From assembly GCA_034370385.1 (NCBI GenBank), contig JAXMKZ010000024.1:1-64000 (forward strand): a stretch of DNA of 64,000 nucleotides, written 5' to 3'. Position numbers and translations under genes: made by a program. The DNA comes from Coriobacteriia bacterium. Its GTDB lineage: Bacteria > Actinomycetota > Coriobacteriia > Anaerosomatales > PHET01. Positions 40,230 through 58,795 of this stretch are shown here, piece after piece (positions within the stretch are counted from its first letter, which is position 1; each line of letters opens with the position of its first letter). The notes under the pieces are model-generated. The model was not told the DNA's origin, ran no database searches, and saw nothing but the letters and a program-made list of their open reading frames with translations.

Positions 40230-40294
40230 AAGGTGCTCGTGAGAGCTGAACTGAGGCTCGCATTGGATGATTGCCACAGACTGGCGGAGGTCGC

Positions 40295-40537
40295 ATGAAG
40301 ATGGGTACTGACCGCATCCACATATACGACACCACCCTGCCCGACGGCGAGCAGTCGCCGGGCGCTTCGATGAACACCGAGGAGAAGGTCACGATTCGCG
40401 TGCGCGCCGGTATCTCCACCAGACGTGGCGCTCACTCGGACATCATCGTTGCGAGCGCGAAGGCGTACACCAACGCGCACAACCGGCTGCTTGTGGCCGA
40501 GAAACGCGAAGTCGCGGACGAGGTGCAGGGGCGATGA
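40295..40537 (+). pseudogene. Internally deleted leuA remnant (80 codons)
   Basis: The first 30 residues ([20 protein letters not shown], then MNTEEK) match the LeuA N-terminus. The rest (VTIRV, then [16 protein letters not shown] and NRLLVAEK) matches the LeuA C-terminus; about 436 residues of barrel and linker are missing. The junction lies where both parent regions read roughly GAGAAG/GTCACGAT. The catalytic Arg of DTTLRDG is Pro. It keeps an SD (GGAGG, five bases before ATG 40295), and its stop overlaps the ligase start (ATGA). DNA divergence from the intact leuA shows it is not a recent copy. Confidence 0.85.
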
Positions 40538-42435
40538 GCCGAGTCGCGACCGCAGCCGCATGGACGCTGGCTGCGACGCTTTGCGCAAGCATGCTCGCTT
40601 GGACCAACCTCACCGGACTTGGCATCGGAGCTAATCCGCTCACCTACGATGACCTTGCTCTAGCGCGTTTCGTCGCAGGAACCATAGGCATCTCGGCGGT
40701 CTGGTTCCTGCTGGCGCTGATGATCGAGCGCGGCAATCCGCTGAGCGTCGACAACACGCTGCTTGCCCTTGGCGCGCTTGCCTTGTGGTCGGTGCTCTCT
40801 GCGGCCTTTGCAGGCACGACGCTCGTGTGGCTTGGCCAGTCGGAGCGACTCGAAGGGGTCGCCACGATGTTTCTCTACGCGCTGGCATACGGAGCCGGCC
40901 TGCAGGTTGGTCGTGCGCGACGGGTCGTGCGCACGCTCGCCGCGACGGTCGCGGTGTGCGCGACTTTGCTCGCGGTCCACGGGCTGCTGCAAGTGATCGG
41001 CCTTGACCCCACCAGCTACTTACATAGCGGGTCGACGCTCTATCTTGGCTCGGCGTTCGCCAGCCTGAGTAATCCGAACTTCCTTGCGGGTGTGCTCGTA
41101 ATCGCACTGCCGATTGCCGGAGGGCTTGCCGCGAGCGCGTCATCGACGCTGGCGAAGTGGTCTTGGGCCGCAATCGGCGCGGTCATACTGGCGGCTCTCT
41201 ATGCTACCTACTCGCAAGGCGCCTGGCTCGGGGCAGTCGTCCAGCTGGCGATCGCAGTGGCTCTTTGGGTGGTGGCGCGGGGCCGGGTGCGGCCTGCCGG
41301 TGAGCGTGAGGCTGACAGTCCGAGCGCGGGGCGTGCCGGGGCGGGGCGGACGCGACTTGCTTGGCTTGTCTCTGCGTCCATAGTGCTTGTCGGCGTCATC
41401 ATCATCGTCGCCGTGACCGGAGTCGCCACGTCGCGGGGCTTGCGCCTGTGGGGGTCAAGCCTCTCCGAGACGGGCTCGGGCCGCATCCTGCTCGTACAGA
41501 CCACGGCGGGTGCCGTTGCCGACAAGCCCGTTCTGGGGTTTGGCGCGGACAACTACCTTGAGGCGTTTCTGCTTCACAGGCCTGATCGGTTCGTCGAGGT
41601 TTTCGGCGAGCAGTCCACGACGAACAATGCGCACTTCTGGCTGTTGCAGTATGCGGCGACGCTTGGAGTGGTGGGTGCGCTTCTGTTGGCGGCGGCCCTG
41701 GGTATGGGTCTGTGGCGGGCAAGACCGGTTGTCGCGGGCGAGTCCGAGCAAGCCAACGCGCTTCAGGTGGCCATCTGGCTTGGATTGGTTGGCTACGCGG
41801 TTCAGATGATGTTCAACGTGGCGGTGCTCGCCTCGACAGTACCGTTCTGGGTGCTTATGGGCGCGCTCTGTGCGCCGCGCGCCCGCCGTATGGTTGTGGA
41901 AGGCCGGTCGAAACGCGTGCTCACGGTTGCGACGGCCACGCTTCTTGCTGTCTCGATCCTGGGCGGGGGAGCGCTCATCTCAGCTGACGCGCTCTACATG
42001 GCGTCCCGCGATGCGTATTGGGGTGATGCTCCGGGCGACCCGGTTGCGCTCGCCGGGCGCGCGGCGCAACTGAACCCCCTGTCAATCAAGTATGCGCGCG
42101 GAGAGGCTCAGGCCCGCTCAGCGCTTGTATCTCAGGCCATAGAGGGGGGTGGGTCCGCACAGGACGTTCGTCGGCTCCACGACGAAGCGGTCGCGGCGTT
42201 CGAACGCACGTTGTCACGCTCGCCCAGAGACTACGCTGCGCACTCATGGCTTGCGGGACTGCACCTGCGCGTTGGGACGCATCTGGGAGATCAGGAGCTT
42301 GTCGAGGAGGCGTTCTCGCTGGCCAGGACGGCCGCCACTCTCGATCGCACGCACTGGAGCGTGGTGCCGCTTCTCGATGGGGACACCTCTGACGGCGCGG
42401 CTCGGCTCGCGGCCTTGGCGCCGCCTTTGCCCTGA
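40534..42435 (+). CDS. O-antigen ligase/polymerase-type membrane protein
   Basis: This 633-residue polytopic protein has about a dozen membrane segments and the ligase-type loop motif [14 protein letters not shown] with [16 protein letters not shown] helical tail (about residues 480-633) includes TPR-like sequence ([33 protein letters not shown]). It is more distant from the 36078/38163 pair than those are from each other. The start overlaps the leuA remnant, mirroring the leuA-ligase order at 13 kb. Confidence 0.83.
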
Positions 42436-42480
42436 GACCAAGACCGAGGCGCGAGTAGCGGCCCCCGCTCGGCCATGCCG

Positions 42481-42486
42481 TATCAT
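42481..42486 (+). promoter_or_regulatory. -10 element (TATCAT) for a leaderless GT transcript
   Basis: TATCAT is followed by exactly six bases and then ATG 42493, the same spacing as the leuA leader ORF (TATACT, six bases, ATG). No Shine-Dalgarno sequence precedes this ATG, which fits leaderless initiation. Confidence 0.45.
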
Positions 42487-42492
42487 GGCTCC

Positions 42493-44817
42493 ATGCTCAC
42501 CTCAGTCTCTCACGACGCAACCGCCGAATCCTTCTCGGCACGCACCAAGGTCGCGGTCGTCATCACCGGCCTGCAGGTGGGCGGCGCCGAGACCTTCCTG
42601 GGCGAGCTGCTCAAGCACACGCCCGGCGATCTTGAGATCCGCGTCTTTTCGCTCATAGACGGCGGCCCCATAGCCGAGCGCATCGAGGCTATGGGCATCC
42701 CAGTCACCGGTCTGGGTATGGAGGCGGGTAGGCCCAGCGTGCGAGCGCTGTTCGAGCTGCGTGGCCACCTCGCGCGATTCAGGCCCACTATCGTGCACAC
42801 CTGGATGTACCACGCGGACTTGCTGGGTGGTGTCGCGGCGAAGCTCGCGGGAGTTCCTCACGTCATCTGGCACCTGCACAACAGCGACCTGTCGCCCGCT
42901 CGCGTGCGCCTCATGACTCGGCTCGTGGTGCGCGTGAACGGCTTGTTCTCGCGGTTCTTGCCCAGCGTGGTGCTGTCGTGTTCCCGAGCGGCCGTCAAGA
43001 CGCATGTCGCCTACGGCTACGCCGCTCACAAGATCGTGGTGGTCCCCAACGGCGTCGATACGCAGCGGTTCGCCCCGCAGCCCGAAGCCGCCGCCTCGGT
43101 GCGTGCCGAGTTCGACATCCCTGAGAGCCTGCCGGTGATCGGCCTGGTGGCGCGCGTGGACCCGCAGAAGAACCACGAGGGGTTCTTCGAGGCGGTTCGG
43201 TTGTTCTTCGAGATGGGCGGGGATGCCCACTTCCTGCTCGTCGGCCGAGGCGTCACGCCCGACCACTGGCAGCTTCCCCGCTGGCGCGACGCCACCGGCA
43301 GACCAGAGCGCATCACGCTCGCGGGGCAGCGCTCGGATGCGCCGCGGCTCATGGCCGGCTTCGATGTCGCGACCTCGGCATCGCTGGGCGAGGCGTTTCC
43401 CATGGTCCTCATCGAGGCGATGGCCTGCGAGACACCGTGTGTGGCGACCGCTGTGGGCGACTCGGAGCTCATCGTGGGCGATGCGGGCGTGGTCGTGATG
43501 GCGGGTGACCCCGCGGCACTCGCCCAGGCGTGGATCGAGTTCCTCAGGCGACCTGCGGATGAACGCTCCGCGCTGGGCGTTCGCGCCCGGGAACGCGTGC
43601 TTGACAGCTACGCGATACAGTCGGTCGCCGGCCGAATCTGGCGCTCGTATCGGTGTGTGGGCCGCGGTGCTTCGGCGGTGCGTCAAGCGGCGAGGGGCCC
43701 TCACCCTCACGTTGCCTATCTGAGCCTCCAGGCTGTCACACAGGGCCAAGACAGCTGGGCGGCGGTCAACGAGATCGTGTCCGAGTGGCAGGAGTCGGGC
43801 TGGAACGTCGACCGATGGTTTCCGGACTATCCTGAGACGGGGGCGCCGGGTGCCGTGGGGCGTGCGCTGGAGATGTGGCGGTTGCAGCGCGAGCTCAAGC
43901 GCGATATCTATCTCTACGACGCGCTGTACGTCCGCGGACACACCATGGCATACCCCGGATCGCGCTGGGCGAGAGCCGCCGGAGTCCCCGTCTTCCAGGA
44001 ATGCAACGGCACCTACGAGGACCTGTTCATCGCGTGGCCCGCTGCGAGATTGGGTCGGCCGCTGTTCGAGCACATGCAGCGCGCCCAGTACCGCGATGCC
44101 CGGTTCGTGTTCTGCGGTACCGAGCCGCAGCATCGCTGGCTCAATGCGGAGACAGGGCACGACCGGGTGATCGTGAGTCCCAATGGCGCCAACATCGAGC
44201 TCTTCACGCCTGCCGCCCCCCGACGGGAGGGTCTACCTGAGCGTTATGCTCTCTTCTTCGGGCAGTTCGCACCGTGGCAGGGTATCGAGGTGCTGGTGGC
44301 GGCCAAGCGAAGCAGCGAGTGGCCTAGCGGAGTCGATCTTGTGTTCGTGGGTGCGGGTGAGCGCGAACCGGTGGTCAGAGGCGCCGTGAACCACGATCAG
44401 GGCACCCACTACCTTGGGCGGCTACCGTACGAGGAGCTCGCGGGAGTGATCGCGCACAGCGTTGCATCCACATCGCCGCAGTTCACGCAGGAGCGCGGTT
44501 CGCAGGGGTTCTCGGCACTCAAGCTCTACGAGTCGATGGCGTGCGGCGTGCCGGTCATTGGTAGCGACTACCCGGGAGTTGCCGATGTGATCGAGCGCTA
44601 CGATGCAGGAATCGTGGTCACTCCCGGCAAAGCCGATGAGCTCGCGCGAGCAGTAGCGACCCTCGCTGCCAATGAGAGCGAGGCCCGGCGCATGGGGGCC
44701 AACGGCAGGGCGGCCGTCGAGCGTGAGGCGACGTGGGCCGCGCGAGCGCAGCAGCGGCGCATCGTGATTGAAGCGGTGATGGGGGACCATCGCCAGCGGG
44801 CGGAGTGTGGCGCATGA
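42493..44817 (+). CDS. Two-domain glycosyltransferase (GT4-GT4 fusion)
   Basis: This 774-residue protein holds two GT-B units. The first (about residues 15-385) has VAVVITGLQVGGAETFLGEL, VARVDPQKNHEGFFEAV and SLGEAFPMVLIEAMACETP. The second (about 405-765) has HVAYLSLQAVTQGQDSWAAV, FFGQFAPWQGIEVLVAA and SALKLYESMACGVPVIGSD. It probably adds two sugars in turn. The start at 42493 is preferred to ATG 42475 because of the leaderless spacing after TATCAT. It ends on ATGA with the GT2 gene. Confidence 0.87.
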   Translation: MLTSVSHDATAESFSARTKVAVVITGLQVGGAETFLGELLKHTPGDLEIRVFSLIDGGPIAERIEAMGIPVTGLGMEAGRPSVRALFELRGHLARFRPTIVHTWMYHADLLGGVAAKLAGVPHVIWHLHNSDLSPARVRLMTRLVVRVNGLFSRFLPSVVLSCSRAAVKTHVAYGYAAHKIVVVPNGVDTQRFAPQPEAAASVRAEFDIPESLPVIGLVARVDPQKNHEGFFEAVRLFFEMGGDAHFLLVGRGVTPDHWQLPRWRDATGRPERITLAGQRSDAPRLMAGFDVATSASLGEAFPMVLIEAMACETPCVATAVGDSELIVGDAGVVVMAGDPAALAQAWIEFLRRPADERSALGVRARERVLDSYAIQSVAGRIWRSYRCVGRGASAVRQAARGPHPHVAYLSLQAVTQGQDSWAAVNEIVSEWQESGWNVDRWFPDYPETGAPGAVGRALEMWRLQRELKRDIYLYDALYVRGHTMAYPGSRWARAAGVPVFQECNGTYEDLFIAWPAARLGRPLFEHMQRAQYRDARFVFCGTEPQHRWLNAETGHDRVIVSPNGANIELFTPAAPRREGLPERYALFFGQFAPWQGIEVLVAAKRSSEWPSGVDLVFVGAGEREPVVRGAVNHDQGTHYLGRLPYEELAGVIAHSVASTSPQFTQERGSQGFSALKLYESMACGVPVIGSDYPGVADVIERYDAGIVVTPGKADELARAVATLAANESEARRMGANGRAAVEREATWAARAQQRRIVIEAVMGDHRQRAECGA

Positions 44818-45758: not shown

Positions 45759-47285
45759 GTGCCAAAGAACAAACGGAAGCGCGCCCAGAAGGGCGAACGG
45801 CCCGTCACCAACGCGCAACCCGCGCCTGCCGGCCTGTACGTGAAGCCGAGCTGGCGAGACGCTGTCTGCCTGCTTGTTGCCTTGCTCATGTACGTCACTG
45901 TCGCGCGAGGGCTGCTGTACTACGCGCCATTGATCCAGTTGCTCGCATTGGTCGGAGCAGTGGCCGGGCTCACTGCGGCGGCCCGCGTCAACGCCGCCGC
46001 AGTGGCGTTCGCCGCGTCGACAATGGGGCTTCTCGTGCTGCAGCCGTTCGTCATCGCCCGGGGGGTGGGCGACACCGCGTTTGCACAAAGCGCCATGGTG
46101 GCTTTTGGCAGTGCAGCCGTCGCGTGGGTTGTCCGATGGGCGGTGGAGACCTACGGCACGAAGGTTACGACCATCGTGCCGTGGATCATCGTGGGGCTCC
46201 TGACCGTGAACCTTTGGGCAACGGTGATCACACTGGACGCCCGCATCGTTACCGAGGACGGCCGCTCCGGGGCTGACATGCTGGGCGAGAACCCCGTTGT
46301 TGGCCAGCAGTGGAGCGATGAGGACTTCTACCGGCGCGTCCTGTGGCTGATGACACAAGAGGACGCGGGGTTCTATGAAGCGTTTCGCCAAGGCTACCAA
46401 GAGAACATTCGCTGGCAACGTGATCCGAACACCGTGCTGGCCGTGCGCTTGCCAACGGCGTTTCTGCTGTGGAACTACCTACCCGGCAAACCGTGGAGTC
46501 TGATAGTTGGCTACCTGGCTCTCGTCTCGGCGGCGGGTGGTGCGATCGCGTGGATGTCCGCGCGCCGCACGTCACTCACCTTGGGCATACCTGCTATCGC
46601 CGCCCTGTATGGGCTGGCACTGTCGGTCAGTACCTCGCGGCTGGTGTTGATGACCGAGGCGTGGGCGGTACCCTTTGCCGTCGTCTCGGTGTGTGCCGCC
46701 ATCGTTTCGTTCGGACAGGACCGGTGGAAGGCGCTCACGGTTCTCTCGGTGGTGGCTGCAGTCGCGGCCGCGGGGCTGCGAGAGCTGATGGTGTACCTCT
46801 TTGTCGCTGGTATCGCGGCAGCACTGGTGGGCCCGCCTGAGCGCCGCACGTTCCGTGCGGTGATGTGGCTGGTCGGCTTCACCGTCGTGCTGGCGGGATA
46901 CGTGGTGCATGCCGGGGCCGCTGCCGCGATCGTGACCAACACGGGGGGCGTGTCGCAGTGGTTCAACGGCGGGCCGAGCAACTTGGTGGCCGGCTTGGGC
47001 TATGCCGCTGAGTACATCGGAGGTACCGCGCTTGTTCCGGCGACGTTCGGAGTGCTTGCGCTTAGTGGCGCGGCAGCTTCGAACCTGACCGAAGAGCGGG
47101 TCTTTGCCGGGCTTTGCTGCGCACTTCCGCTCCTGAGCTTCCTGTTCGTGGGAAGCGACGCGGTGGATGTCGCCAAGGGGACCGCGATCAACTACTGGGG
47201 CATGATCGTTGTCCCCGTTCTGTTCGCTGTGTCTCCACTTGGCATCGAACGTCTGCTGACGTGGGCTGATCGCCCTCATGCCTGA
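45759..47285 (+). CDS. Polytopic membrane protein of unknown function, glycan island
   Basis: This 508-residue protein has a basic N-terminus ([14 protein letters not shown]) and about eleven hydrophobic segments. A large non-membrane loop after the fourth or fifth segment (residues about 165-240) contains [24 protein letters not shown] and [14 protein letters not shown]. The layout recalls GT-C type glycosyltransferases, which carry acidic residues in the first outer loop, but I see no diagnostic motif. It lies directly upstream of leuC. Confidence 0.75.
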
Positions 47286-47291
47286 TACAAT
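47286..47291 (+). promoter_or_regulatory. Candidate -10 element (TACAAT) for leuC
   Basis: TACAAT starts at the base after the stop of the membrane-protein gene and 46 bases before the leuC ATG, so leuC may be transcribed on its own inside the glycan island. Confidence 0.4.
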
Positions 47292-47331
47292 CCTCTGTCA
47301 CACCCCGCGTCACGTGAAGGAGTCACCATCC

Positions 47332-48600
47332 ATGCCGCGTGCCATGACGATCACCGAGAAGATCCTCGCCGCCCACGCCGGCCTCGATGAGGTCGAACCG
47401 GGTGAGCTCATCAACTGCCAGCTGGACATCGTGTTGTCGAACGACGTCACGGCGCCCATCGCCATCAAGGAGTTCGCCAAGATCGGCGTCCAGAAGGTTT
47501 GGGACCCCACGAAGGTCGTGATGGTGCCGGACCACTACACGCCCAACAAGGACATCAAGAGCGCCGAGCAGGCCAAGATCATGCGCGAGTTCGTGCGCGA
47601 GCAGGGCATCACTCACTACTACGAGATCGGCTGCATGGGCGTCGAGCATGCGCTGCTGCCCGAGCAGGGGGTGGTTGGCCCCGGCGACGTGATCATCGGC
47701 GCCGACTCTCACACCTGTACCTATGGCGCGCTGGGGGCGTTCGCCACGGGTGTGGGCTCTACCGACGCTGCCGTCGGTATGGCCACCGGCGAGGCCTGGT
47801 TCAAGGTCCCCGAGTCGATCAAGTTCAACATCACCGGCGAGCTGTCTCCGTGGGTGTGCGGCAAGGACATCATCTTGCATATCATCGGCATGATCGGTGT
47901 CGATGGTGCGCTGTATCAGGCGATGGAGTTCACGGGCGACACCATCGAGCGGTTGGGCATGGATGACCGTATGACCATCTGTAACATGGCGATCGAAGCG
48001 GGCGGCAAGTCGGGCATCATCGCTGTTGACGGCACCACGCGCGCATACATTGAGGGTCGCTTCGAGCGCGAGCCGGTCGAGTACGTTTCGGATGCGGATG
48101 CACACTACGCCGCGGTGTACGAGGTCGACGCGACCCGGATCGTGCCCACCGTCGCGTTCCCGCACCTGCCTTCCAACACGCGCCCTGCCGCCGACGCCCG
48201 CGACATCTGGATCGACCAGGTCGTTGTAGGCAGCTGTACCAACGGTCGCATCGAGGACCTGCGCATCACCGCGCAGCTACTCAAGGGACGCACCGTACAC
48301 CCCGACATCCGCATGATCATCATCCCGGCGACGCAGGAGATCTACCGCCAGGCGATGCACGAGGGGTTGTTCGACATCTTCCTCGATGCCAACGCCGCGG
48401 TGTCGACGCCTACGTGCGGACCGTGCCTAGGCGGGCATATGGGAATCCTTGCGGCAGGGGAGCGCGCCCTCGCGACCACCAACCGCAACTTCGTAGGCCG
48501 CATGGGAGACCCCACGTCCGAGGTCTACCTGTGCTCACCCGCTGTCGCCGCAGCGAGCGCAGTGGTGGGTCATATCGCGTTGCCAGAGGATCTCGACTGA
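47332..48600 (+). CDS. leuC: 3-Isopropylmalate dehydratase, large subunit
   Basis: This is an aconitase-type [4Fe-4S] enzyme for the second leucine step, 422 residues, matching the shorter archaeal/clostridial LeuC2 form. Motifs: [34 protein letters not shown] and the cluster-binding [10 protein letters not shown]. The ATG at 47332 has AAGGAG upstream; the frame is open further but that part resembles nothing. No leuD small subunit follows, although leuD is normally adjacent, so it must lie elsewhere. Confidence 0.95.
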
Positions 48601-48807: not shown

Positions 48808-49668
48808 ATGCCCGACAATCATGAGGAGATCGAACGGCAGGAGCCTGTCGAAGAGCAGCCGCTTCACGACTCTGGAGACATCTCGCCAGACGAGGTCGAG
48901 ATCGAGGTCGGTTCGGTTCCTGCCGAGGCTCCGCCCGCACGCCGTGTCCGGCGGAGCATGTTCGCAGACCCGCTGGTGCGCGTGCTTGCGGTCGTGACTT
49001 TCGCGATTGTCGTTCTCTTTCTAGCGAGCGTGATCGGCATCCTGTCAACCGGCGTGCTCACGCCCAAGGGTCCCCGCACCCTGGCCGAGAAGGAGCTCGC
49101 TGAAGCGCGGACGGCTGTCAGCGTGGGTACCTCCGATACTGCTATGTGGGGCCAGTACGTTGCCACACTGGTGAGTGCCGGCCAGCAGTCGCGAGCTCGT
49201 TCGGTGCTTGCTGGGGCTCGTCAGAACCTAGACGACTCTGGCACGGGCGAGTTCAGTATTGCCGAGGCGCGCATCTACAAGTCCGAAGATGACCACGAGG
49301 CTGCCATCAAGGCCGCGCTCGAGGCGATGGAACAGGTGCAGGCCAAGTACGATGAAGAGGTGGCGAAGGGTGGCCTGACCGGTTCACGGGCACAGATCAG
49401 GGGACTCCACGAGAACTACTACATCGCCGTCTTGATCATCGCCGAGGCCAGCGAGGCTACCGGGGACTGGGAAACGGCGATCTCGAACTATGATATCTAC
49501 ATTGGCAAGACCCGAGGTGCTGCGGATATCTTGGTCGATCGTGGCAACGCGAAGCTCAAGATCGATGACACCGAGGGCGCCAAGAAGGACTTCGAGGAAG
49601 CACTGCGATTCGTGCCGGACAGCAGGGAAGCGCTTGAGGCGCTCGACAGGATCGGAGCTGCAGAATGA
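48808..49668 (+). CDS. Single-pass membrane protein with TPR-like repeats
   Basis: This 286-residue protein has an acidic N-terminal tail (residues 1-45), one membrane segment (VRVLAVVTFAIVVLFLASVIGIL, about residues 57-79) and helical repeats (IAEARIYKSEDDHEAAIKAALEAM; ILVDRGNAKLKIDDTEGAKKDFEEALRFVP). TPR proteins usually act as scaffolds. AGGAGG precedes the ATG. The stop overlaps the NHL gene start (ATGA), so it probably works with that protein and the cytochromes that follow. The 207-base gap after leuC holds a small hairpin (48722-48737) and no clear gene. Confidence 0.8.
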   Translation: MPDNHEEIERQEPVEEQPLHDSGDISPDEVEIEVGSVPAEAPPARRVRRSMFADPLVRVLAVVTFAIVVLFLASVIGILSTGVLTPKGPRTLAEKELAEARTAVSVGTSDTAMWGQYVATLVSAGQQSRARSVLAGARQNLDDSGTGEFSIAEARIYKSEDDHEAAIKAALEAMEQVQAKYDEEVAKGGLTGSRAQIRGLHENYYIAVLIIAEASEATGDWETAISNYDIYIGKTRGAADILVDRGNAKLKIDDTEGAKKDFEEALRFVPDSREALEALDRIGAAE

Positions 49669-50948
49669 CCGAGACTCCAGCCGTGGCTGCTGACTTGAGC
49701 CAGGGTAGCGAGAAGTACAAGTCGCGCCGTGGACGCCGGCTGTTCATACTGCTCCTGCTCTTTCTCCTGATTCTCCTTGGTTTCGCCTCGTACTTCTTGT
49801 TGAGGCTCATTACGCCCGCAGGAGCGCCTACTCAGGGCGATGATCTTGGAGGAATCACCTGGATTCGCTCGATCTACGGGCTCTCGGAGGCCCCGGAAGA
49901 CCAGTTCAATATGGTGCAGTCGGCGGTTCCTGGTCCGGATGGGTCGATTTGGGTAAACGATGCCGATCGGCGGAGTGTCTTCCAGTTCACCCCGCAGGGT
50001 CAGTATGTCCGCGAAGAAAGTGGACCCGATGATGACCCGCTCGTTATACCAGGGCGCGTGGCGTTTGGGCCCGATGGGCTCATGTACGTCACCGAGAGAC
50101 AGAACGATCTCGTGCGTGTTCTCGACGCGAACGGCGCGGAGGCCGGTTCTTTTGGGATTCCCAGCCCGTTCTCGATCGATGTGGACGAGGAACGGATCGC
50201 AGTGGGCACCCGCTTTGGCTTTGCCATCCTTGAGAAGGATGGCACACCTCTTCAGGTCATCGGTGCGATGGGCAAAGGTGATGACGAGTTCGACTACGTG
50301 CATGGGATCGCCCTAGGGGACAACGGGATTGTCTACGTTGTCGACTCGTTCAACAACCGGCTGAGCGCGTATGACAGCGAGGGTAAGCGACTGTGGATCG
50401 TGCGGACGGGCTTACCTACCAACCAGGCCGAAATGGTAGACGACAAGCTCAAGATCCAGACTGACGCCAAGCCTGATCTGGCCGAGGGCGACCAGCTGCA
50501 GTTGCCGATGGCGCTGACTGTCGACGGGGCTGGCAGGCTTGTCGTTGTCGACATGTACGAGTGTGCACTTGCCGTCTTCGATCCCGAGGACGGATCCTTC
50601 ATTGCCAAGTACGGTGAGTTCGGGGCGGAGGATGGGAAGTTCCTGTACCCCACAGGTGTTGCCTACGACGCAGAGCGGGACTGGTTCACCGTTGCTGACA
50701 CCATGAACTCGAGGGCCCAGATCGTGAGGATCCCTGGCTCTGCGGGCGGCAACGCTGCGGCCGCCGCCGTCAATCGCGCGCTGTCCGGTCCGTTGCGCGC
50801 CTGCCTGTTCCCGCTGCTGTTGCTTGTGCTGATTCTGATCATCTGGCTGGTTGCCCGCGTCATACGTAAGCGCCGCCATTCGGGCGACACCAACGCGGTC
50901 CTAGGCGCTGACGATGAGAGTGAAACACCCAGCATTACTGAAGATTAG
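49665..50948 (+). CDS. Membrane-anchored NHL-repeat beta-propeller protein
   Basis: This 427-residue protein has an N-terminal membrane segment (LFILLLLFLLILLGFASYFLL, about residues 26-46), about five or six NHL-type blades (IPGRVAFGPDGLMYVTERQNDLVRVLD; VHGIALGDNGIVYVVDSFNNRLSAYD; MALTVDGAGRLVVVDMYECALAVFD; YPTGVAYDAERDWFTVADTMNSR) and a second membrane segment near the C-terminus (LFPLLLLVLILIIWLVARVI). NHL proteins accompany multihaem cytochromes in some metal-reducing bacteria, which fits this context. Confidence 0.87.
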   Translation: MTETPAVAADLSQGSEKYKSRRGRRLFILLLLFLLILLGFASYFLLRLITPAGAPTQGDDLGGITWIRSIYGLSEAPEDQFNMVQSAVPGPDGSIWVNDADRRSVFQFTPQGQYVREESGPDDDPLVIPGRVAFGPDGLMYVTERQNDLVRVLDANGAEAGSFGIPSPFSIDVDEERIAVGTRFGFAILEKDGTPLQVIGAMGKGDDEFDYVHGIALGDNGIVYVVDSFNNRLSAYDSEGKRLWIVRTGLPTNQAEMVDDKLKIQTDAKPDLAEGDQLQLPMALTVDGAGRLVVVDMYECALAVFDPEDGSFIAKYGEFGAEDGKFLYPTGVAYDAERDWFTVADTMNSRAQIVRIPGSAGGNAAAAAVNRALSGPLRACLFPLLLLVLILIIWLVARVIRKRRHSGDTNAVLGADDESETPSITED

Positions 50949-50952
50949 GGGT

Positions 50953-50982
50953 TGCTAAAGCAAGCCCTGCCGCGGTACACTG
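50953..50982 (+). promoter_or_regulatory. Promoter for the small multihaem cytochrome gene
   Basis: TTGCTA (50953-50958) and TACACT (50977-50982) are separated by 18 bases, the best sigma-70-like pair in the window. The following 120-base leader contains AGCAG...CTGCT and ends in AAAGGAGGTG. Confidence 0.6.
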
Positions 50983-51150
50983 CACATAGAATCTTCACCT
51001 TGATTACGAGGGTTCGAAAGGGTATAGCAGCCACGCGATTACTGCTCGGCACTACCGTCGAATCGTATCGCGTCTGTAATTAACCAGCTTGGGAAAGGAG
51101 GTGCGCATATGAAACAAGCGCTTTCCGTAAACAACACAAAAGGAGTCTCC

Positions 51151-52185
51151 ATGAAGAAGACCGTTCTTATAGTTGCTCTTGCGACCGTCTTCGTCCTTGC
51201 CTTCGCGGCCGTCGCTTCTGCAACTCCCTCCCGTACCTGGGCCAACTACACCGACTACTACACGTGGGGTTCGCAGGCTGGCGCCGGCACTGGCGCCCTG
51301 CTCAGCACGATGGGCAGCAACCCGACCAACTCCGCCCCGCACTCGGGCTACCTGGCTAACACCGCCAAGTGCGGTATCTGCCACTCGGTCCACCGTGCCA
51401 AGGGCAACGGCGTCAAGCTGCTGAACTCGGTTACCGACACCTGCATCGGCTGCCACGCAGTCGGTAGCGGCGTCACCGACATCACGGTCAACGTCGGTAC
51501 CGGCCCGCACTCCGTCTCCACCACCTGCAACGGCCGCGGCTGCCACGTGGACAACCCGCACGGCGCCAACGGCTCGGCGTACTCGATCGTCCAGGCCAAG
51601 CTGCTCTCCAAGTCTGTCGACACCTACCTGACTTCCAAGGGAGCTCTGGGTAACTCGGCCGCCTCGGGCATCACGGTCGCGCTGCTCAACGGCGACGCCG
51701 GCTGGAACGAGGCGACTCGCTCGTCCGTCCGTACCGGTTACACCTGTAACATCGAGGGTTGCCACTACCAGACCCTGCTCTCCGTTACGACCAAGGGCTG
51801 GTCTGAGGATCGCAAGGGTCCGCGCTACGACCTCACCGATCACCGCAACGTCACCGGTCACATGACCGCTGGTGCGGCAGCCAACAACAACGCTGGCTCC
51901 TACACCCCGGTTGCCAGCTGCGTGAGCTGCCACGACCAGACCGACTCGCTCACCGGTGACGGCTCCACGACCGTGTCGGGCTTCACCTTCCCGCACGGAC
52001 AGGTCCCGTCTGCTTCTAGCACCAACAACACCGGTGGCCAGCGTGCCTACCTGTGGTACACCACCGCTGCCAACTCGACTGGCGCTGGCGCTAGCTACTT
52101 CACCCAGCCCAACGACAAGGCGTTCGACGGCGCTTGCCTCAAGTGCCACCGTAACGCTACCAGTGGTATCGGTATCACCCACTAG
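51151..52185 (+). CDS. Secreted multihaem c-type cytochrome (about six haems)
   Basis: This is a 344-residue exported cytochrome. The signal peptide KKTVLIVALATVFVLAFAA ends near ASA. Haem motifs: CGICH, CIGCH, CVSCH, CLKCH plus CX4CH forms CNGRGCH and CNIEGCH. Two in-frame starts have good Shine-Dalgarno sequences: ATG 51109 (AAAGGAGGTG) adds 14 residues, while ATG 51151 (AAAAGGAG) gives a standard signal peptide and is listed. Codons are dominated by AAC, AAG, CGT, GGT/GGC and CTG, suggesting high expression. It has its own promoter and terminator. It probably carries electrons outside the membrane. Confidence 0.9.
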   Translation: MKKTVLIVALATVFVLAFAAVASATPSRTWANYTDYYTWGSQAGAGTGALLSTMGSNPTNSAPHSGYLANTAKCGICHSVHRAKGNGVKLLNSVTDTCIGCHAVGSGVTDITVNVGTGPHSVSTTCNGRGCHVDNPHGANGSAYSIVQAKLLSKSVDTYLTSKGALGNSAASGITVALLNGDAGWNEATRSSVRTGYTCNIEGCHYQTLLSVTTKGWSEDRKGPRYDLTDHRNVTGHMTAGAAANNNAGSYTPVASCVSCHDQTDSLTGDGSTTVSGFTFPHGQVPSASSTNNTGGQRAYLWYTTAANSTGAGASYFTQPNDKAFDGACLKCHRNATSGIGITH

Positions 52186-52231
52186 TACTGCACTCGCACC
52201 AGCTGAGAGTCCACGGATTCTCTGAGAGCAA

Positions 52232-52270
52232 GAGGGGGTCGGCTCCGAAAGGAGTCGGCCCCCTCCTCTT
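52232..52270 (+). terminator. Rho-independent terminator after the small cytochrome gene
   Basis: A 15-bp stem (52232-52246 with 52251-52265, with G-U pairs) closes on a GAAA tetraloop and is followed by CTCTT. It isolates the cytochrome transcript from the next genes. Confidence 0.85.
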
Positions 52271-52432
52271 CGATAGCTCTGTGTTGTGTGTGGGTGTCTT
52301 CTGGCGCGAGTACTCTGGTACGCTAAGTGCTCATCGAGCGGCGCCGTGAGGCTCTCTGTCTTGTGCGCTGAAAGCATATGGCTTCCCTCGGATTCTGCGT
52401 CGCAACTACCTGACTGGAAAGGGCCCCGCTTC

Positions 52433-53365
52433 ATGCGCAAGACCGTTCTCATCGCTGCGGTCTCCCTAGTGTTCGCCCTACTGCTTGGCGTTGGTGTCTG
52501 GGGCACCGTTTGGGGGCCGGAGCGCTGCGCCGCTTGCCACACCGAACCTGCGTTTGTCTCGGCGTCTGCGCAGGGCGCTCACGCCTCAGTCGACTGTCTG
52601 CAGTGTCACTCTGAGGGTGGCGCATGGGGCAGAATCGCCTTCAACAGCGCGCATCTGGGGCGCATGGTTCCTTCGAGCACATGGTCGGTCAGAGACGTGG
52701 CCGATGTCGCGGATGCACGATGTCTGTCGTGTCATGACAAGGTGGACGATGAGGCGATCTCTGCGAACGGGATTCGGGTAGACCACTCGACGTGTGCATA
52801 TGAAATCCGGTGCACCGAATGTCACTCGACCACCGCACATGGGAGTGCCGTCTCGTGGGTACGGACCTACGACATGGAGACCTGTCTTCAGTGTCACGCA
52901 TCGGACGGGTCGGTTGCGTGCGACCTGTGCCACGTGGGCCGCTCTCCTGAGAATCGGATCAGAACCGGGGTGTTCGCGATCACGCACGGGCCCGAATGGG
53001 AGCGCACTCACGGCATGGGCGACAGCTCGACGTGCGCCGCGTGTCACACTGCTGCCGACTGCGGCACGTGTCATGGCCCTGGACTACCGCATGATGGCGG
53101 CTTCATGAAGGAGCACTCGACTTTCTCGCAAGACCGCAAGGCAAAGTGCGAATCGTGTCATGAGCCGCAGTTCTGCGATGGGTGCCATGGTCTTTCGATG
53201 CCCCATCCAAGGCGATTCGTGATAGCACACGGTGTAGAGGCTGAGCAGAACCGCACCCTCTGTTCGCGGTGCCATGTCGACACTGACTGTTCCGTGTGTC
53301 ATGTGAAACATGTGCATCCTGGCGGCGCCGTGAATCTTCCCGCACAAGGTGGTGCAGCTCAGTGA
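52433..53365 (+). CDS. Membrane-anchored 12-haem c-type cytochrome
   Basis: This is a 310-residue protein with one N-terminal membrane segment (VLIAAVSLVFALLLGVGVWGTVW) and an NrfH/NapC-like opening, then 12 CxxCH motifs (CAACH, CLQCH, CLSCH, CTECH, CLQCH, CDLCH, CAACH, CGTCH, CESCH, CDGCH, CSRCH, CSVCH). It may pass electrons from the quinone pool to outer cytochromes. The ATG at 52433 is chosen because GGAAAGGG precedes it and the frame above lacks a signal. The stop overlaps the next start (GTGA). Confidence 0.9.
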   Translation: MRKTVLIAAVSLVFALLLGVGVWGTVWGPERCAACHTEPAFVSASAQGAHASVDCLQCHSEGGAWGRIAFNSAHLGRMVPSSTWSVRDVADVADARCLSCHDKVDDEAISANGIRVDHSTCAYEIRCTECHSTTAHGSAVSWVRTYDMETCLQCHASDGSVACDLCHVGRSPENRIRTGVFAITHGPEWERTHGMGDSSTCAACHTAADCGTCHGPGLPHDGGFMKEHSTFSQDRKAKCESCHEPQFCDGCHGLSMPHPRRFVIAHGVEAEQNRTLCSRCHVDTDCSVCHVKHVHPGGAVNLPAQGGAAQ

Positions 53366-54591
53366 AAGAGGATCAGCTGCTCACCGATGGCGTGTTCGAC
53401 CCATCCATCCTGCGGGATGTGGGCACTCAGCTAATCGAGCTGCTATGGGACCCCACGGCCAACCTCACCGCCGCCTTGCTGCTCTACGGCGTCATCGCTA
53501 TCGTCCTCACCATCGTCATCGTTGCGGTTCTCATGCTTGCTCCGTCGGCATTCGACGACGAAGAGGACGATGAGGGCGGTCAAGCTGCTTCTGGGGAGCC
53601 GCAGACCCGCGCGCCGGAGGTGGCCCGCGAGGAGGTCGATCCTCGGGCACGGCTGGTCACGCTTGGCATCATGTTGGCGATGGTTGGTGTCATCTGGCTT
53701 GCGGCGGGGTTCTCTACATCACAGAATCCCGTGTGTGCGGGGTGCCATACGACTGAGCCGCACGCCATTTCAGAAACGGCGGGGTTGGTCGATCCGCACG
53801 CCGGCGCATCCTGTGTGGGGTGCCATGAGCCCAGCGGTGCTCTCGGGCACTACGTGTTCAACGTCCCGTCCCGGGCGATCCACTTCGTGGACGGCGTCAT
53901 CCAGCCCTCACTGCAGCCCAACTACGGCCGCCCCACGCAGTCCGGGTGCCTCTCGTGCCACCGGGGAGACCTCGGGGGAGTAGCGGTCAATGAGCAGCGG
54001 GGCTTGCGTATGTCGCACGTGGAGCCCTTGGAATCTGCGGTTGAGTGTCTCGACTGTCACCGCTATACGGACGGCGTTGTAGCGGCGCATAACGCCGGCA
54101 TGAACCCCTGCCTGAGGTGCCACGACTCGAAGCAGGCATCCAGCGAGTGCTCGACCTGTCACGACCGGCAGGCCGCTTCCGCAGCGCGCGCCCGCTCAAC
54201 CGAGTTTGCGGCTGTCCAGGTCAAGCAGGTCCGGTGCGGAGGATGCCATGATGAGCGTAGAGAGTGCGATCCATGCCATGGGGTGCGGATGCCGCACGAT
54301 GAGACGTTCATGCTGTACGCCCACGCGCGTTCTGCCGCGGTCGATTACTGGTACGGCAACGGCAGCACTTGCATGAGTTCGTCATGCCACACGGCTACAC
54401 GTCGCCCCTGCACCAGGTGTCACGGTCCTCTGCTCGGAAGAGGGCACGGGCCCCAGCTTGCTGAGTCCCACAAGGGCGCGAGCAGTGCTCGCTGCAACAC
54501 GTGCCACCAGGTGTGGGCCTACTCAGCGCAGAGGGATTTCTGCAGGGACGTGTGTCACTCCGAGGCTGCGCTACGCTACAGTCCTCGTTAG
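53362..54591 (+). CDS. Membrane-anchored multihaem c-type cytochrome (about 10-12 haems)
   Basis: This 409-residue protein has two membrane segments (ALLLYGVIAIVLTIVIVAVLML, about 31-52, and TLGIMLAMVGVIWLAAGF, about 95-112) split by an acidic loop. Ten CxxCH motifs follow, plus CMSSSCH (CX4CH) and CRDVCH (CX3CH), whose use for haem is unproven. NPVCAGCH right after the membrane segment recalls NapC/NrfH quinol oxidases. It starts at GTG overlapping the previous stop. Only nine bases separate its stop from the ligase gene. Confidence 0.9.
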   Translation: MKEDQLLTDGVFDPSILRDVGTQLIELLWDPTANLTAALLLYGVIAIVLTIVIVAVLMLAPSAFDDEEDDEGGQAASGEPQTRAPEVAREEVDPRARLVTLGIMLAMVGVIWLAAGFSTSQNPVCAGCHTTEPHAISETAGLVDPHAGASCVGCHEPSGALGHYVFNVPSRAIHFVDGVIQPSLQPNYGRPTQSGCLSCHRGDLGGVAVNEQRGLRMSHVEPLESAVECLDCHRYTDGVVAAHNAGMNPCLRCHDSKQASSECSTCHDRQAASAARARSTEFAAVQVKQVRCGGCHDERRECDPCHGVRMPHDETFMLYAHARSAAVDYWYGNGSTCMSSSCHTATRRPCTRCHGPLLGRGHGPQLAESHKGASSARCNTCHQVWAYSAQRDFCRDVCHSEAALRYSPR

Positions 54592-54600
54592 GAGGTGGCC

Positions 54601-56448
54601 ATGGCGAAATCCCGATCGCAGGAGGTCACGTGGCGCGCGTTAGCGCCCGGGTTCCTGGTGTTCCTTGCATTCGTGGCGCCTGGTGCGTGGCTCGTGGTCG
54701 CGCTGCCCCCCATTCCGCTCGCCAAGGCACTCAACCTGCTTACTGTGGCCGTCTGGCTGCTCGCCGTCGGACTCGGCTTGATGCGCTGGGTGCAGCCGGA
54801 GCGCCGAGTGCTGTGGGCTGTAGCGGCTGTGGCGGCCGCGGTTGTTGCGTCGTACGCAATCGGCGGCTCCTTGTTCCAGGTGGCATTCTATGATCTGTAT
54901 GCGAACATGCCGCTGGTGCAGTGGCTCGCGTTTCCGCTCATCTTCGTTCTGGCGGCCGGAATGGTGGCCGACCGCCCACGACTCGAGAGCGCTCTGGTAG
55001 TCGTGGTGATCTTCGGCGCCGTGCTGGCCGGGGTCGAGGCCTTTCAGCAGATCACGACTTCGACTCCACGCGTGTTCGGTTCTACGGGCTACAGCAAGGC
55101 TGCTCTCGCGCCGCTGATCCCGCTCGGAGCCGTCTTGGCCGCTTCGCGCACCGGGGTCCTGCGCGTCGCGCTCTACAGTGCCGCCGCGCTTGTCGCCCTC
55201 GACGTTGGTCTGTTGGCCGGGTCGACCATGGGGGCAGCAGCAGCGGCATTCGCGCTTCTTGCGGCCCTGGCTGTCCACCCGGCGGTGTGGGCGGCTGAAT
55301 CGGGTGCACGGCGCGCGCTTCGTACGGGAGCGCTGACGCTGGCGGCGGGCATGGTGCTCGTGATGTTGTTCGCCCAGGTGCCCGCGTTGAGCGGACGGTG
55401 GATCAACCCGGATGCACTGGCATCCGCCGGCTCGAGCGTGATCTCGAGGCTGCAGATGTGGCAGGGCGCGCAAGAGATGGTCCTCGAGCGGCCTGTTCTC
55501 GGCTACGGGCCAAGTGGGTACCGGATGGCGGCCGTCGAGTACCTTCCCTCAGAGGCGCTGCAGTACGGTCCTGATCGGCAGGGGAGCATCGACCCCACCG
55601 TGTACAGCCCTCAGTCGCCGCATTCGCTCCTCTGGGAGGCGGGAACGAGGCTCGGGCTGATCGGGGTCGTTGCGCTTGCCGCGCTGCTGCTGTCTTGGGC
55701 AACAGCGGTCGTCGGCCGAGTTCGCTCGGATGTCTCCGGGAGCTCCATCAGGCGCGCTCTGGCCGCCGCCTTCGTGACTGCGGCGTTCGCGCTGTCGATA
55801 GACCCCGTCTTCTTCGCTATCGGACTGTTCGCGCCGGTGGCCGCAGGGCTCGCCATCGCCCCTCTGAGTGCCCCAGGGGAACAGGAGCGTGCTGCGCCGT
55901 CGTGGCTTCCAAAGGTGTTCGCCGCCGGCGGTGTCGCCGTGGCACTGGTTGCCGGCTGGTTGGGCGTGGGAGAGTGGCGCATCGGGAGTTCCTACTCCGA
56001 CGATCCGGCGCAGATGCGATCGTCTCTGCAGTCAGCACTGGCGGTCGCACCCGGCCATCCGCAGGCCGAACGCCAGGTGTGGGAACTGAATCTGCTTCTG
56101 GCAACCGACGACACCGAGGTGGCAGCAGTCCAAGCCCGGGTCGACGCTGCGCCCTCCTACATCTCCGGCTTCGCGCCGAATCTGGTGAGCCTCGCCGCGT
56201 ACTCGCTCAGTCAAGCCGAGCGCACCGGGCGGAGCGACCTGTCATGGGAGCGAGGTCTTCTCGATGAGGCTGCGGGAAGGATGCCGCCGATGCCCTCGCT
56301 TGTCGCCGAGAAGCTCAGGCTCGCTGTCATCGACGGCAACGTCACGGACGTGGGGGTAGCACTTGCGGATGCCGAGCGCTGGGGCGCTCCGTACCCGCTC
56401 ACAGAATCCTACATCGCGAGGGCGCGAGACGTCCTTCAAGGCGATTGA
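54601..56448 (+). CDS. O-antigen ligase/polymerase-type membrane protein, downstream of the cytochromes
   Basis: This 615-residue polytopic protein has about twelve membrane segments and the loop motif RPVLGYGPSGYRMAAVEY with SPQSPHSLLWEAGTRLG. A helical tail of about 160 residues follows the last segment. AGGAGGTG lies just before ATG 54601, inside and after the cytochrome stop region, so it is probably co-transcribed with the cytochromes. It is the fifth protein of this type in the window. Confidence 0.82.
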   Translation: MAKSRSQEVTWRALAPGFLVFLAFVAPGAWLVVALPPIPLAKALNLLTVAVWLLAVGLGLMRWVQPERRVLWAVAAVAAAVVASYAIGGSLFQVAFYDLYANMPLVQWLAFPLIFVLAAGMVADRPRLESALVVVVIFGAVLAGVEAFQQITTSTPRVFGSTGYSKAALAPLIPLGAVLAASRTGVLRVALYSAAALVALDVGLLAGSTMGAAAAAFALLAALAVHPAVWAAESGARRALRTGALTLAAGMVLVMLFAQVPALSGRWINPDALASAGSSVISRLQMWQGAQEMVLERPVLGYGPSGYRMAAVEYLPSEALQYGPDRQGSIDPTVYSPQSPHSLLWEAGTRLGLIGVVALAALLLSWATAVVGRVRSDVSGSSIRRALAAAFVTAAFALSIDPVFFAIGLFAPVAAGLAIAPLSAPGEQERAAPSWLPKVFAAGGVAVALVAGWLGVGEWRIGSSYSDDPAQMRSSLQSALAVAPGHPQAERQVWELNLLLATDDTEVAAVQARVDAAPSYISGFAPNLVSLAAYSLSQAERTGRSDLSWERGLLDEAAGRMPPMPSLVAEKLRLAVIDGNVTDVGVALADAERWGAPYPLTESYIARARDVLQGD

Positions 56449-56519: not shown

Positions 56520-57911
56520 TTGAGCGACGTTCGGGCTGCTCGGAGTATGCGAGTCCTCACGCTGAGCCCTTCCATCACGGGGGGCGGGGCCGAACGCGTG
56601 GCGCTTTCGTTGCACGAGGCGTACCTGGGGCGCGGTGTCGACTCGCGGATCGCAGCCGCCAGTCTCAACGGCGATGCCGTCAACGCGGTGCAGGTGCCAC
56701 GGGATGCAGGTCGGAGCGCTTGGGCGCGGACCCTGCTGTCGCCTGCCTGGCGGCTTGAGGAGCGGAGCAGAAGCGCAGGGGATCCTCCGTCGCTGGCGTC
56801 ACGCGTTCTGCGCGTCGCCGCCGAACCGCGGCGTTGGGCGCGCGTGGCGCGCGGGCACGAGGACTTCGACTTCCCGTGGACCGCACGCCTGCTCGAGTTG
56901 CCCACCACGCGCCCGGATGTGCTGCACCTGCACAACCTTCATGGAGGCTACTTCGACATCCGGGCGCTCCCGGGACTCTCCGCGCGGGTGCCGACCATCG
57001 TGACCATGCACGACACGTGGCTGCTGACCGGTCACTGTGCGCAACCTTTCGCGTGCGAGCGGTGGCGCGAAGGCTGCGGCTCGTGTCCGGACCTGGGCCG
57101 CTACGTGCCCATTCGACGAGACGCGAGCGAGGAGAACCGCGCCGTCAAGCGCCGCGCGCTGCTTGCGAGCCGCGTGGGGCTGGTCGCTCCATCACGATGG
57201 CTGCTGTCGATGGCCGAGCAGAGCGGGTTGCTCGGCAAGGGTCGTGAAGGGCGCGTGATCCCGAACGGGGTGGACGTGAATCTGTTCAAGCCGGGGGATC
57301 GAGGGGCCGCGCGCGAACGTCTCGGCCTGCCTCCGGACCGCCCGATCGTGCTTGTCGTGGCCAAGGACGTGCGCAGCAATCCCTACAAGGGATTCGATAC
57401 GCTCATCGAGGCACTTGAGATGTTGCCCGAGGGGGTGTCGGACGGCCTGCTGCTGGTCGCACTGGGCGACGACGGGCCATCGCGACCAGTAGGTCGGTTC
57501 GAGGTGCTCTGCGTTCCCTTCACCGATGCCGCGGAGGACATCGCCGCCTACTATCAGGCCGCGGATGTGTTCGTTCAGCCGTCGCGAGCCGAGAGCTTCG
57601 GGATGGCACCAGTCGAGGCGATGGCGTGTGGAACGCCGATACTGGTCTCCGATGCAGGTGGGCTGCCCGAGATCGTGGCGGCGGGAGAGTCCGGGTCGGT
57701 GTTCGCGGCGGGAGACTCCTCCGCGCTGGCGATTCGCCTCCACGAGCTACTCGGTGATGGGGACCGACGTGCACGCTACTCCTCGGCGGGGATCGAGCGC
57801 GTCGCAGAGCGCTTCACGATCGATGGGCAGGTCGACGCCTATCTGGCATGGTATGCCGAGTTGATGGACGTGCGTGCTGCCGAGATGAATGGGGTGTCGA
57901 CCGCAGGATGA
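56520..57911 (+). CDS. Glycosyltransferase, family 4
   Basis: This 463-residue GT-B enzyme begins MRVLTLSPSITGGGAERVAL shortly after the start, has the Cys block TMHDTWLLTGHC then GCGSCPDL shared with the GT4s at 18608 and 22542, and the donor motif AESFGMAPVEAMACGTPILV. The frame is open from 56445. TTG 56520 is preferred since GAGGAG lies six bases upstream; ATG 56547 is another option. The stop overlaps the GT2 start. Confidence 0.86.
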   Translation: MSDVRAARSMRVLTLSPSITGGGAERVALSLHEAYLGRGVDSRIAAASLNGDAVNAVQVPRDAGRSAWARTLLSPAWRLEERSRSAGDPPSLASRVLRVAAEPRRWARVARGHEDFDFPWTARLLELPTTRPDVLHLHNLHGGYFDIRALPGLSARVPTIVTMHDTWLLTGHCAQPFACERWREGCGSCPDLGRYVPIRRDASEENRAVKRRALLASRVGLVAPSRWLLSMAEQSGLLGKGREGRVIPNGVDVNLFKPGDRGAARERLGLPPDRPIVLVVAKDVRSNPYKGFDTLIEALEMLPEGVSDGLLLVALGDDGPSRPVGRFEVLCVPFTDAAEDIAAYYQAADVFVQPSRAESFGMAPVEAMACGTPILVSDAGGLPEIVAAGESGSVFAAGDSSALAIRLHELLGDGDRRARYSSAGIERVAERFTIDGQVDAYLAWYAELMDVRAAEMNGVSTAG

Positions 57912-58795
57912 TGAGCGACGAACTCGGTACGCGGGGACATCCCCTGGTTTCGATCCTTACGCCTTCCTACAACCAGGCGACCTGGCTCGGCGAGAACCTG
58001 CGCTCGGTCGCGTGTCAGACCTACCCGCACGTCGAACACGTGGTCATGGATGGCGGTTCGACCGACGGAAGCATCGAGCTGCTTCAAGCAGCGGAGGAGT
58101 CGGTCGTCTGGCGCAGTGAGCCCGATGAGGGCCAGGCCGACGCCATCAACAAGGCGTTCGCTGCCTCGAGTGGAGAGATCATCGGGTGGATCAACTCCGA
58201 TGACGCGTACTTCGACTGCCGTGTCATCGGGGATGTGGTCGCGCATTTCGAGGCGCACCCGGATGTCGACGTTCTCTTCGGTCACTGCGCACAGACCACC
58301 GCCACCGGCGCGATCATCCAGCTGCTATGGGCACCGCCTCATCGCAGCGAGTTGCTCCGCTGTGCAGACGTGATCAGCCAGCCCGCCACCTTCATTCGGC
58401 GTAGGGCGCTTTCGGACCCGATGCTCGACCAGAGCTTCCACTTCACCATGGACTACGAGCTATGGCTGCGCCTCGAATCGGCCGGGGCGCGGTTCGCGCG
58501 CATCGATCGCATCACCGCCATCGACCGACACCAGCCCGACCGCAAGTCCTCCAACATCCTCGATGTCCACGCTTCGGACATGGCCCGTCTCGCGGAGCGC
58601 TACGAAACCCGGTTCGGCCCCGAGTTTGACGGCGTGCGCACGCGCTTCTACCTTCGGCAGCGTCTCGGGGGCGCCTCGCTGGTTTCCGGAGTGCGACCGC
58701 CGCTGGCATTCGAGCACCCCGCCGACTTCAAGCGCGGCCTGCTGCAACGCCAGCTAATGACACGCCGGTCTCGCTGGCCTGCGCAGTTCCGGTGA
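57908..58795 (+). CDS. Glycosyltransferase, family 2
   Basis: This 295-residue GT-A enzyme has LVSILTPSYNQATWLGENLRS, VVMDGGSTDGSIELL, SEPDEGQADAINKAF and the DxD-type INSDDAYFD, then TMDYELWLRLE. It resembles the WcaA-like enzyme at 44814. The ATG at 57908 overlaps the previous stop. A 57-base gap with a promoter-like element follows. Confidence 0.9.
   Translation: MMSDELGTRGHPLVSILTPSYNQATWLGENLRSVACQTYPHVEHVVMDGGSTDGSIELLQAAEESVVWRSEPDEGQADAINKAFAASSGEIIGWINSDDAYFDCRVIGDVVAHFEAHPDVDVLFGHCAQTTATGAIIQLLWAPPHRSELLRCADVISQPATFIRRRALSDPMLDQSFHFTMDYELWLRLESAGARFARIDRITAIDRHQPDRKSSNILDVHASDMARLAERYETRFGPEFDGVRTRFYLRQRLGGASLVSGVRPPLAFEHPADFKRGLLQRQLMTRRSRWPAQFR

Follow-up and report, generated by a model that had tools for sequence, protein, structure and literature searches.

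A Wzy_C ligase gene locked to multihaem cytochrome genes in Anaerosomatales: a candidate enzyme for cytochrome glycosylation

Dedicated O-oligosaccharyltransferases (O-OTases) are encoded next to the genes of their substrates (PMC3643930; PMC12645811). PglL conserves one His and two Arg residues that are important for WaaL, and for the PglL candidate of Acidovorax JS42 the genetic context is listed as "cytochrome c" (PMC3643930). In Geobacter, the OmcS and OmcE cytochrome filaments carry surface glycans, which are thought to be insulating (PMC9473688). Our literature search found no paper naming the enzyme that glycosylates OmcS or OmcE, or linking multihaem cytochromes to O-antigen ligases. 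Here we describe lig617, a Wzy_C ligase gene located directly behind a pair of multihaem cytochrome genes in a Coriobacteriia bacterium of the order Anaerosomatales. The analysed stretch of 64,000 nt (the window) is part of a 77 kb contig (C24) of a 2.69 Mb draft genome.

Clusters combining NHL, TPR and multihaem proteins were tied to Fe(III) respiration in Dethiobacter (PMC10376724), and multihaem-rich Anaerosomatales genomes are described in PMC9686372. Fe(III) respiration is the role proposed for the clusters of both groups.

Linkage of lig617 to the cytochrome cassette

lig617 orthologues (E<1e-150) are present in 14 of the 69 genomes of the order, the next best match being at 3e-36. The 14 genomes belong to several families, and the proteins share about 50% identity. 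In every one of them the gene is located directly 3' of cyt3; the gaps range from -4 to 36 nt, and only one exceeds 12 nt. In the window the junction reads TTAGGAGGTGGCCATG: the TAG stop of cyt3 (54589-54591) is overlapped by the Shine-Dalgarno (SD) sequence AGGAGG, and the ATG of lig617 (54601) follows nine bases on, as the first-pass annotation had described it. At one locus (L063:10516-11144, genome G068), the full-length cyt3 and lig617 are separated by a tandem partial duplication consisting of fragments from the N-terminus of lig617 and the C-terminus of cyt3.

The gene following lig617 is not conserved. It codes for another cytochrome at three loci (L009, L055, L061), for ManC at L062, L063 and, by synteny, L013, and for a GT4 glycosyltransferase in the window; at six loci (L012, L056, L057, L059, L064, L074) it is convergent. 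Further cytochrome genes are located downstream at several loci, where the ligase gene is then flanked by cytochrome genes on both sides. The flanking synteny decays across relatives and the core order is retained. Since the following gene varies or is convergent in relatives, lig617 belongs to the cytochrome cassette and not to a downstream glycan operon. The first-pass annotation had pictured an electron-transfer block flowing into a glycan-ligase operon: the cytochromes and the ligase do form one unit (14/14 genomes), but the ligase as the start of the glycan operon is not supported.

In the cyt3 tree, all 14 ligase-linked sequences fall into one clade of 16 with 99% support. The other two members (L058 and L060) have no ligase, which is most simply explained by loss. 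Gene trees of cyt2, cyt3 and lig617 are star-like with few supported splits; some supported clades are shared, and the trees provide no decisive test of co-divergence. In an even sample of 396 genomes across the phylum, lig617 had no match at E≤1e-25 except the window itself.

The cassette itself, TPR-NHL-cyt1-cyt2-cyt3, is widespread in the order. NHL matches (E≤1e-20) were found in 59 of the 69 genomes and cyt3 matches in 61, the weak ones including other multihaem proteins. In many relatives without the ligase, the cassette is located inside the leucine operon in the order leuC-[cassette]-leuD-leuB. A position next to or inside this operon was recorded at L060, L069, L078, L079, L082, L083, L087 and L089. 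In the window, leuC (47278-48600) is located upstream of the cassette; neither leuD nor leuB was recognised in the downstream stretch. A functional substitute behind cyt3 in cassettes lacking lig617 was sought and rejected: the genes found there are leuD-leuB, a spermidine-synthase-like gene or unrelated ones.

This arrangement bears on whether the neighbourhood could be accidental. A polysaccharide cluster might have been inserted behind cyt3 once in an ancestor, leaving an order that has not yet decayed; the leuC-cassette-leuD-leuB layout of many ligase-less relatives makes an insertion at this point plausible, and all 14 loci go back to a single clade. However, the junction has been kept in 14/14 genomes despite about 50% protein identity and scrambled other flanks, and the pairing recurs in a second Wzy_C family, whose genes are located on the opposite side of cyt2. 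As the order recurs in 14 genomes, we do not regard the cyt3-ligase junction as chance, and an accidental neighbourhood appears very improbable.

Wzy_C proteins encoded beside cytochromes

The lig617 product scores 35.3 bits with Wzy_C (PF04932; curated cut-off 31.7 bits), and all 14 orthologues match this domain at E≤1 (best 2.8e-14). The alignment of the 14 sequences shows no variation at R283, W287 or R308, in the SPQSPH341 motif or at several glycines, and R188 is almost invariant. The AlphaFold model (pLDDT 80, pTM 0.81) gave a single Foldseek match at E<1e-3, the WaaL structure 7tpg (E 2.9e-5, probability 1.00, TM-score 0.50 by target length). According to PMC9686372, cultured relatives in the order have a Gram-positive wall, which makes a lipopolysaccharide-core acceptor for lig617 unlikely.

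The last transmembrane helix of lig617 is followed by a C-terminal helical domain. We call it TPR-like for its helix pattern and because Foldseek listed several TPR proteins. From the helix count we infer that this domain is extracytoplasmic, on the same side of the membrane as the active-site loop. A domain of this kind could also belong to an assembly factor: lig617 and its counterparts would then chaperone apocytochromes in the manner of the CcmI/CycH TPR domain, with the ligase activity secondary or lost. The helical domain and the TPR proteins matched by Foldseek agree with such a role, as do a weak match of one cassette-linked Wzy_C protein to the CcmH/CycH TPR model and the CcsA-like genes in the cytochrome region on contig C19 of the window genome. 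However, a pure chaperone would have no use for the His and Arg residues of Wzy_C, which are invariant, and the gene is missing from most cassettes in the order. We consider an assembly role improbable.

The same contig carries a second Wzy_C family, represented by a 579-aa protein which is 20% identical to lig617 in alignment. Its gene is followed directly by genes for a 12-haem-type and a 10-haem cytochrome, then by those for TPR and NHL proteins, a cyt1-like protein and a small cytochrome (G000:C19, about 59.3-67.7 kb, equivalent to L111:7339-15666; relatives at L088 and L112-L118). The family has 11 members in the order, the C19 protein included. It adjoins the pair of 12- and 10-haem cytochrome genes in 9/9 testable genomes, two members being located at contig ends, and overlaps a cytochrome gene by 4 nt in several genomes. 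As a separate family thus accompanies a cytochrome pair of this kind, the association originated at least twice. Genome G042 has a distant lig617 homologue (27% identity) 12 nt behind cyt3.

Wzy_C proteins of a third type (about 711-713 aa) are encoded near TPR-NHL-14-haem (and 33-haem) genes at L125, L080, L076 and G000:C19 (about 48.7-50.8 kb). Their proximity to cytochrome genes is less tight than that of lig617 and the second family.

Cytochromes and layout of the locus

The TPR, NHL, three cytochrome and ligase genes reported by the first-pass annotation are all present on the + strand (Table 1). The TPR orthologues occupy the same cassette position in relatives, and the start of the NHL gene shares 4 nt with the end of the TPR gene. 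The best NCBIfam match of the NHL protein (49665-50948) is the NHL model of ScyF (scytonemin, PEP-CTERM), with 89 of 350 bits, far under the cut-off.

Table 1. Features of the cytochrome-ligase locus (window positions)
Feature	Position	Strand	Description
TPR protein	48808..49668	+	First cassette gene; one N-terminal transmembrane helix; TPR_14 (PF13428, 30.2 bits)
NHL protein	49665..50948	+	Six-bladed beta-propeller; transmembrane helices at N- and C-terminus; DUF5128 and NHL matches (PF17170, PF01436)
cyt1	51109..52185	+	Secreted hexahaem cytochrome; Ser/Thr/Asn/Gly-rich; proposed glycan acceptor
Hairpin	52232..52265	+	cyt1-cyt2 gap; 15-bp, GC-rich, GAAA loop; terminator-like
cyt2	52433..53365	+	Dodecahaem; membrane-anchored; NrfH/NapC-like head; 52433 is the best start
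cyt3	53362..54591	+	Dodecahaem; membrane-anchored; NrfH-like head
Coupled junction	54589..54600	+	Stop TAG, overlapping SD AGGAGG, 9-nt spacer
lig617	54601..56448	+	Wzy_C ligase, predicted WaaL fold, C-terminal helical (TPR-like) domain; candidate cytochrome O-oligosaccharyltransferase
GT4 glycosyltransferase	56547..57911	+	Open reading frame from 56445; possible glycan donor pathway; outside conserved core
GT2 glycosyltransferase	57848..58795	+	Possible glycan donor pathway; outside conserved core

cyt1 codes for a protein with a signal-peptide-like N-terminus and exactly 12 Cys, all of them in six haem motifs (4 CXXCH and 2 CX4CH, at residues 88, 112, 140, 213, 271 and 343). In an alignment of 25 sequences these motifs are invariant, as are six other His, which makes cyt1 most probably a hexahaem cytochrome of the bis-His type. 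Its Ser+Thr content is 22.6%, compared to 11.4 +/- 2.5% in the other window proteins, and is by far the highest among the cassette proteins. Being secreted and richest in Ser/Thr, cyt1 would be the likeliest glycan acceptor. A structural assignment of cyt1 to OmcS/OmcE-type filaments was abandoned, as its AlphaFold model (pLDDT 47) was too poor for a fold search. The cyt1 profile retrieved no OmcS, OmcE or OmcZ chain among PDB sequences (hits to E 1); the matches, all of them weak, were to cytochromes of photosynthetic reaction centres and to an uncharacterised multihaem protein.

cyt2 has one transmembrane helix and 12 CXXCH motifs, cyt3 has two N-terminal transmembrane helices and 12 haem motifs (10 CXXCH, one CX3CH and one CX4CH). 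For the N-terminal parts of both, the best solved relative is NrfH 2j7a (E 2e-12 at profile positions 15-142 for cyt2, E 2e-10 for cyt3). As cyt2 and cyt3 have heads like that of the quinol dehydrogenase NrfH and cyt1 is a secreted hexahaem protein, electron transfer is the natural reading of the cassette, and the function proposed in the first-pass annotation is supported.

A hairpin is located in the gap between cyt1 and cyt2. In the window its folding energy is -38.8 kcal/mol versus -25.9 +/- 3.9 for shuffled sequences. It was found in 20/20 cassettes examined (the window and 19 other loci), GC-rich and mostly without a canonical U-run; in 19 of them it is at least 2.7 standard deviations below shuffles and in one 1.7. 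Folding revealed no hairpin above shuffles at the cyt3-ligase and ligase-GT4 junctions of the window. A scan for consensus promoters and terminators gave nothing clearly above shuffles; the cyt1-cyt2 hairpin was missed because it lacks the U-run which the scan demands. We read this hairpin as a terminator or an mRNA 3' end, which would let the secreted cyt1 be produced in excess over cyt2-cyt3-lig617. The relevant transcription unit would then be cyt2-cyt3-lig617. A single conduit transcript from 48808 is therefore doubtful, the conserved hairpin setting cyt1 apart from the three genes that follow it.

The GT4 gene downstream of lig617 most likely starts at 56547 or 56484 and not at 56445, the position given in the list of open reading frames. 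With either start, the junction between the ligase and the glycan genes (35-98 nt) is looser than that between the cytochrome and the ligase. Elsewhere in the window, three tandem Wzy_C ligase genes (694, 688 and 633 aa) occupy 36078-42435, and a 780-aa open reading frame at 42475-44817 resembles two GT4-type units in one frame, possibly a fusion.

Glycan donors, acceptors and described systems

The glycan genes around lig617 change between lineages. A GT4-like gene, 56-66% identical to that of the window, is located near the ligase at L055, L062, L063 and L013. In one genus (g13; L012, L056, L057, L059) PglA/C/D/E/F-like genes face the ligase. The cluster includes a PglF-like dehydratase and a PseC/PglE-like aminotransferase and, in those checked, a PglC-type phosphoglycosyltransferase, a GT4 enzyme and an acetyltransferase of the NeuD/PglD family, which scores above the cut-off in L012 and L057. 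We take it to resemble the bacillosamine-type lipid-linked glycan route of known protein glycosylation systems.

A fixed cytochrome partner, changing donor-glycan genes and a WaaL-type enzyme together fit an oligosaccharyltransferase with a cytochrome acceptor. With moderate confidence, we propose that the locus is a cassette for electron export which includes a glycosyl-transfer enzyme of its own, lig617 being O-oligosaccharyltransferase-like and acting on an extracellular cytochrome. cyt2 and cyt3 would take electrons from quinol and cyt1 would carry them at the cell surface, while the TPR and NHL membrane proteins may assemble or anchor the complex. Nearby glycosyltransferases could make a polyprenyl-linked glycan, and lig617 would move it onto Ser/Thr of an extracellular cytochrome, most likely cyt1, which the TPR-like domain may dock. 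Cytochrome glycosylation is thus the leading, unproven hypothesis for lig617 function.

Several points weigh against this proposal. Most cassettes in the order lack lig617, and the 14 lig617 loci are of common ancestry, not 14 independent events. Wzy_C is common to O-antigen ligases and polymerases. Polysaccharide genes are usually located near lig617, so the acceptor may be other than a cytochrome. We looked for a cyt1 feature peculiar to ligase-bearing cassettes and rejected it, Ser/Thr/Asn content being equal with and without the ligase. A Pfam scan of the 14 lig617 members (E≤1) found neither PglL_A (PF15864) nor Wzy_C_2, Wzy_C being the sole common domain, so lig617 is not a PglL/PglS member. 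The O-OTases TfpO and TfpM likewise have neither of these two domains (PMC12645811).

The main competing explanation is that lig617 is a polysaccharide ligase or polymerase which links exopolysaccharide to an acceptor in the cell wall or to a lipid, the resulting matrix anchoring the co-expressed cytochromes. Glycan-synthesis genes flank most lig617 loci, the WaaL fold suits lipid or cell-wall acceptors equally well, and Wzy_C is matched 12 times in the genome, including 5 times inside the window. Exopolysaccharide that anchors cytochromes in Geobacter, mentioned in PMC10599522 citing Rollefson 2011, provides a precedent. However, the unchanging partner of lig617 is the cytochrome pair and no glycan gene, and a fixed acceptor with a variable donor is better suited to an oligosaccharyltransferase. 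We therefore hold the matrix explanation to be possible but rather unlikely.

In the oligosaccharyltransferase interpretation, an enzyme family of the right predicted fold has twice become locked to multihaem cytochrome genes, which names a candidate glycosylation enzyme. More tentatively, we speculate that at least two separate Wzy_C families are dedicated to the glycosylation of respiratory multihaem cytochromes, with a fixed acceptor and a lineage-specific donor, and that the glycan insulates or anchors the wires on Gram-positive-type cells. The candidate enzyme would also be relevant to the question of how bacteria that lack an outer membrane display electron-carrying proteins at their surface.

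Among described systems, the TPR-NHL-multihaem clusters of Dethiobacter alkaliphilus, compared by their description in PMC10376724, have the same protein combination as the cassette. A dedicated Wzy_C enzyme, as proposed here, is not mentioned in the passages of PMC10376724 and PMC9686372 on the Dethiobacter and Anaerosomatales multihaem clusters. cyt2 and cyt3 resemble the NrfH/NapC quinol dehydrogenases in having an N-terminal transmembrane part followed by an NrfH-like haem domain, but have 12 haems each instead of 4-5, the extra haems being without a close solved relative. Like the OmcS, OmcE and OmcZ nanowires, cyt1 is a secreted multihaem protein, and OmcS is also hexahaem.

The WaaL structure 7tpg shares the fold and the Wzy_C motif with lig617, from which it differs by low identity (15%), the extra C-terminal domain of lig617 and the embedding of lig617 in a cytochrome cassette. 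PglL, PglS, TfpO and TfpM share with lig617 the Wzy_C family and the conserved His/Arg residues. The genes of PglS, TfpO, TfpM and many PglL candidates adjoin those of their substrates; lig617 adjoins cyt3, and its acceptor is one we infer. In contrast to these enzymes, lig617 has a C-terminal helical (TPR-like) domain, neighbours multihaem cytochromes instead of pilins and is encoded by an actinobacterium, from a lineage with Gram-positive-type walls.

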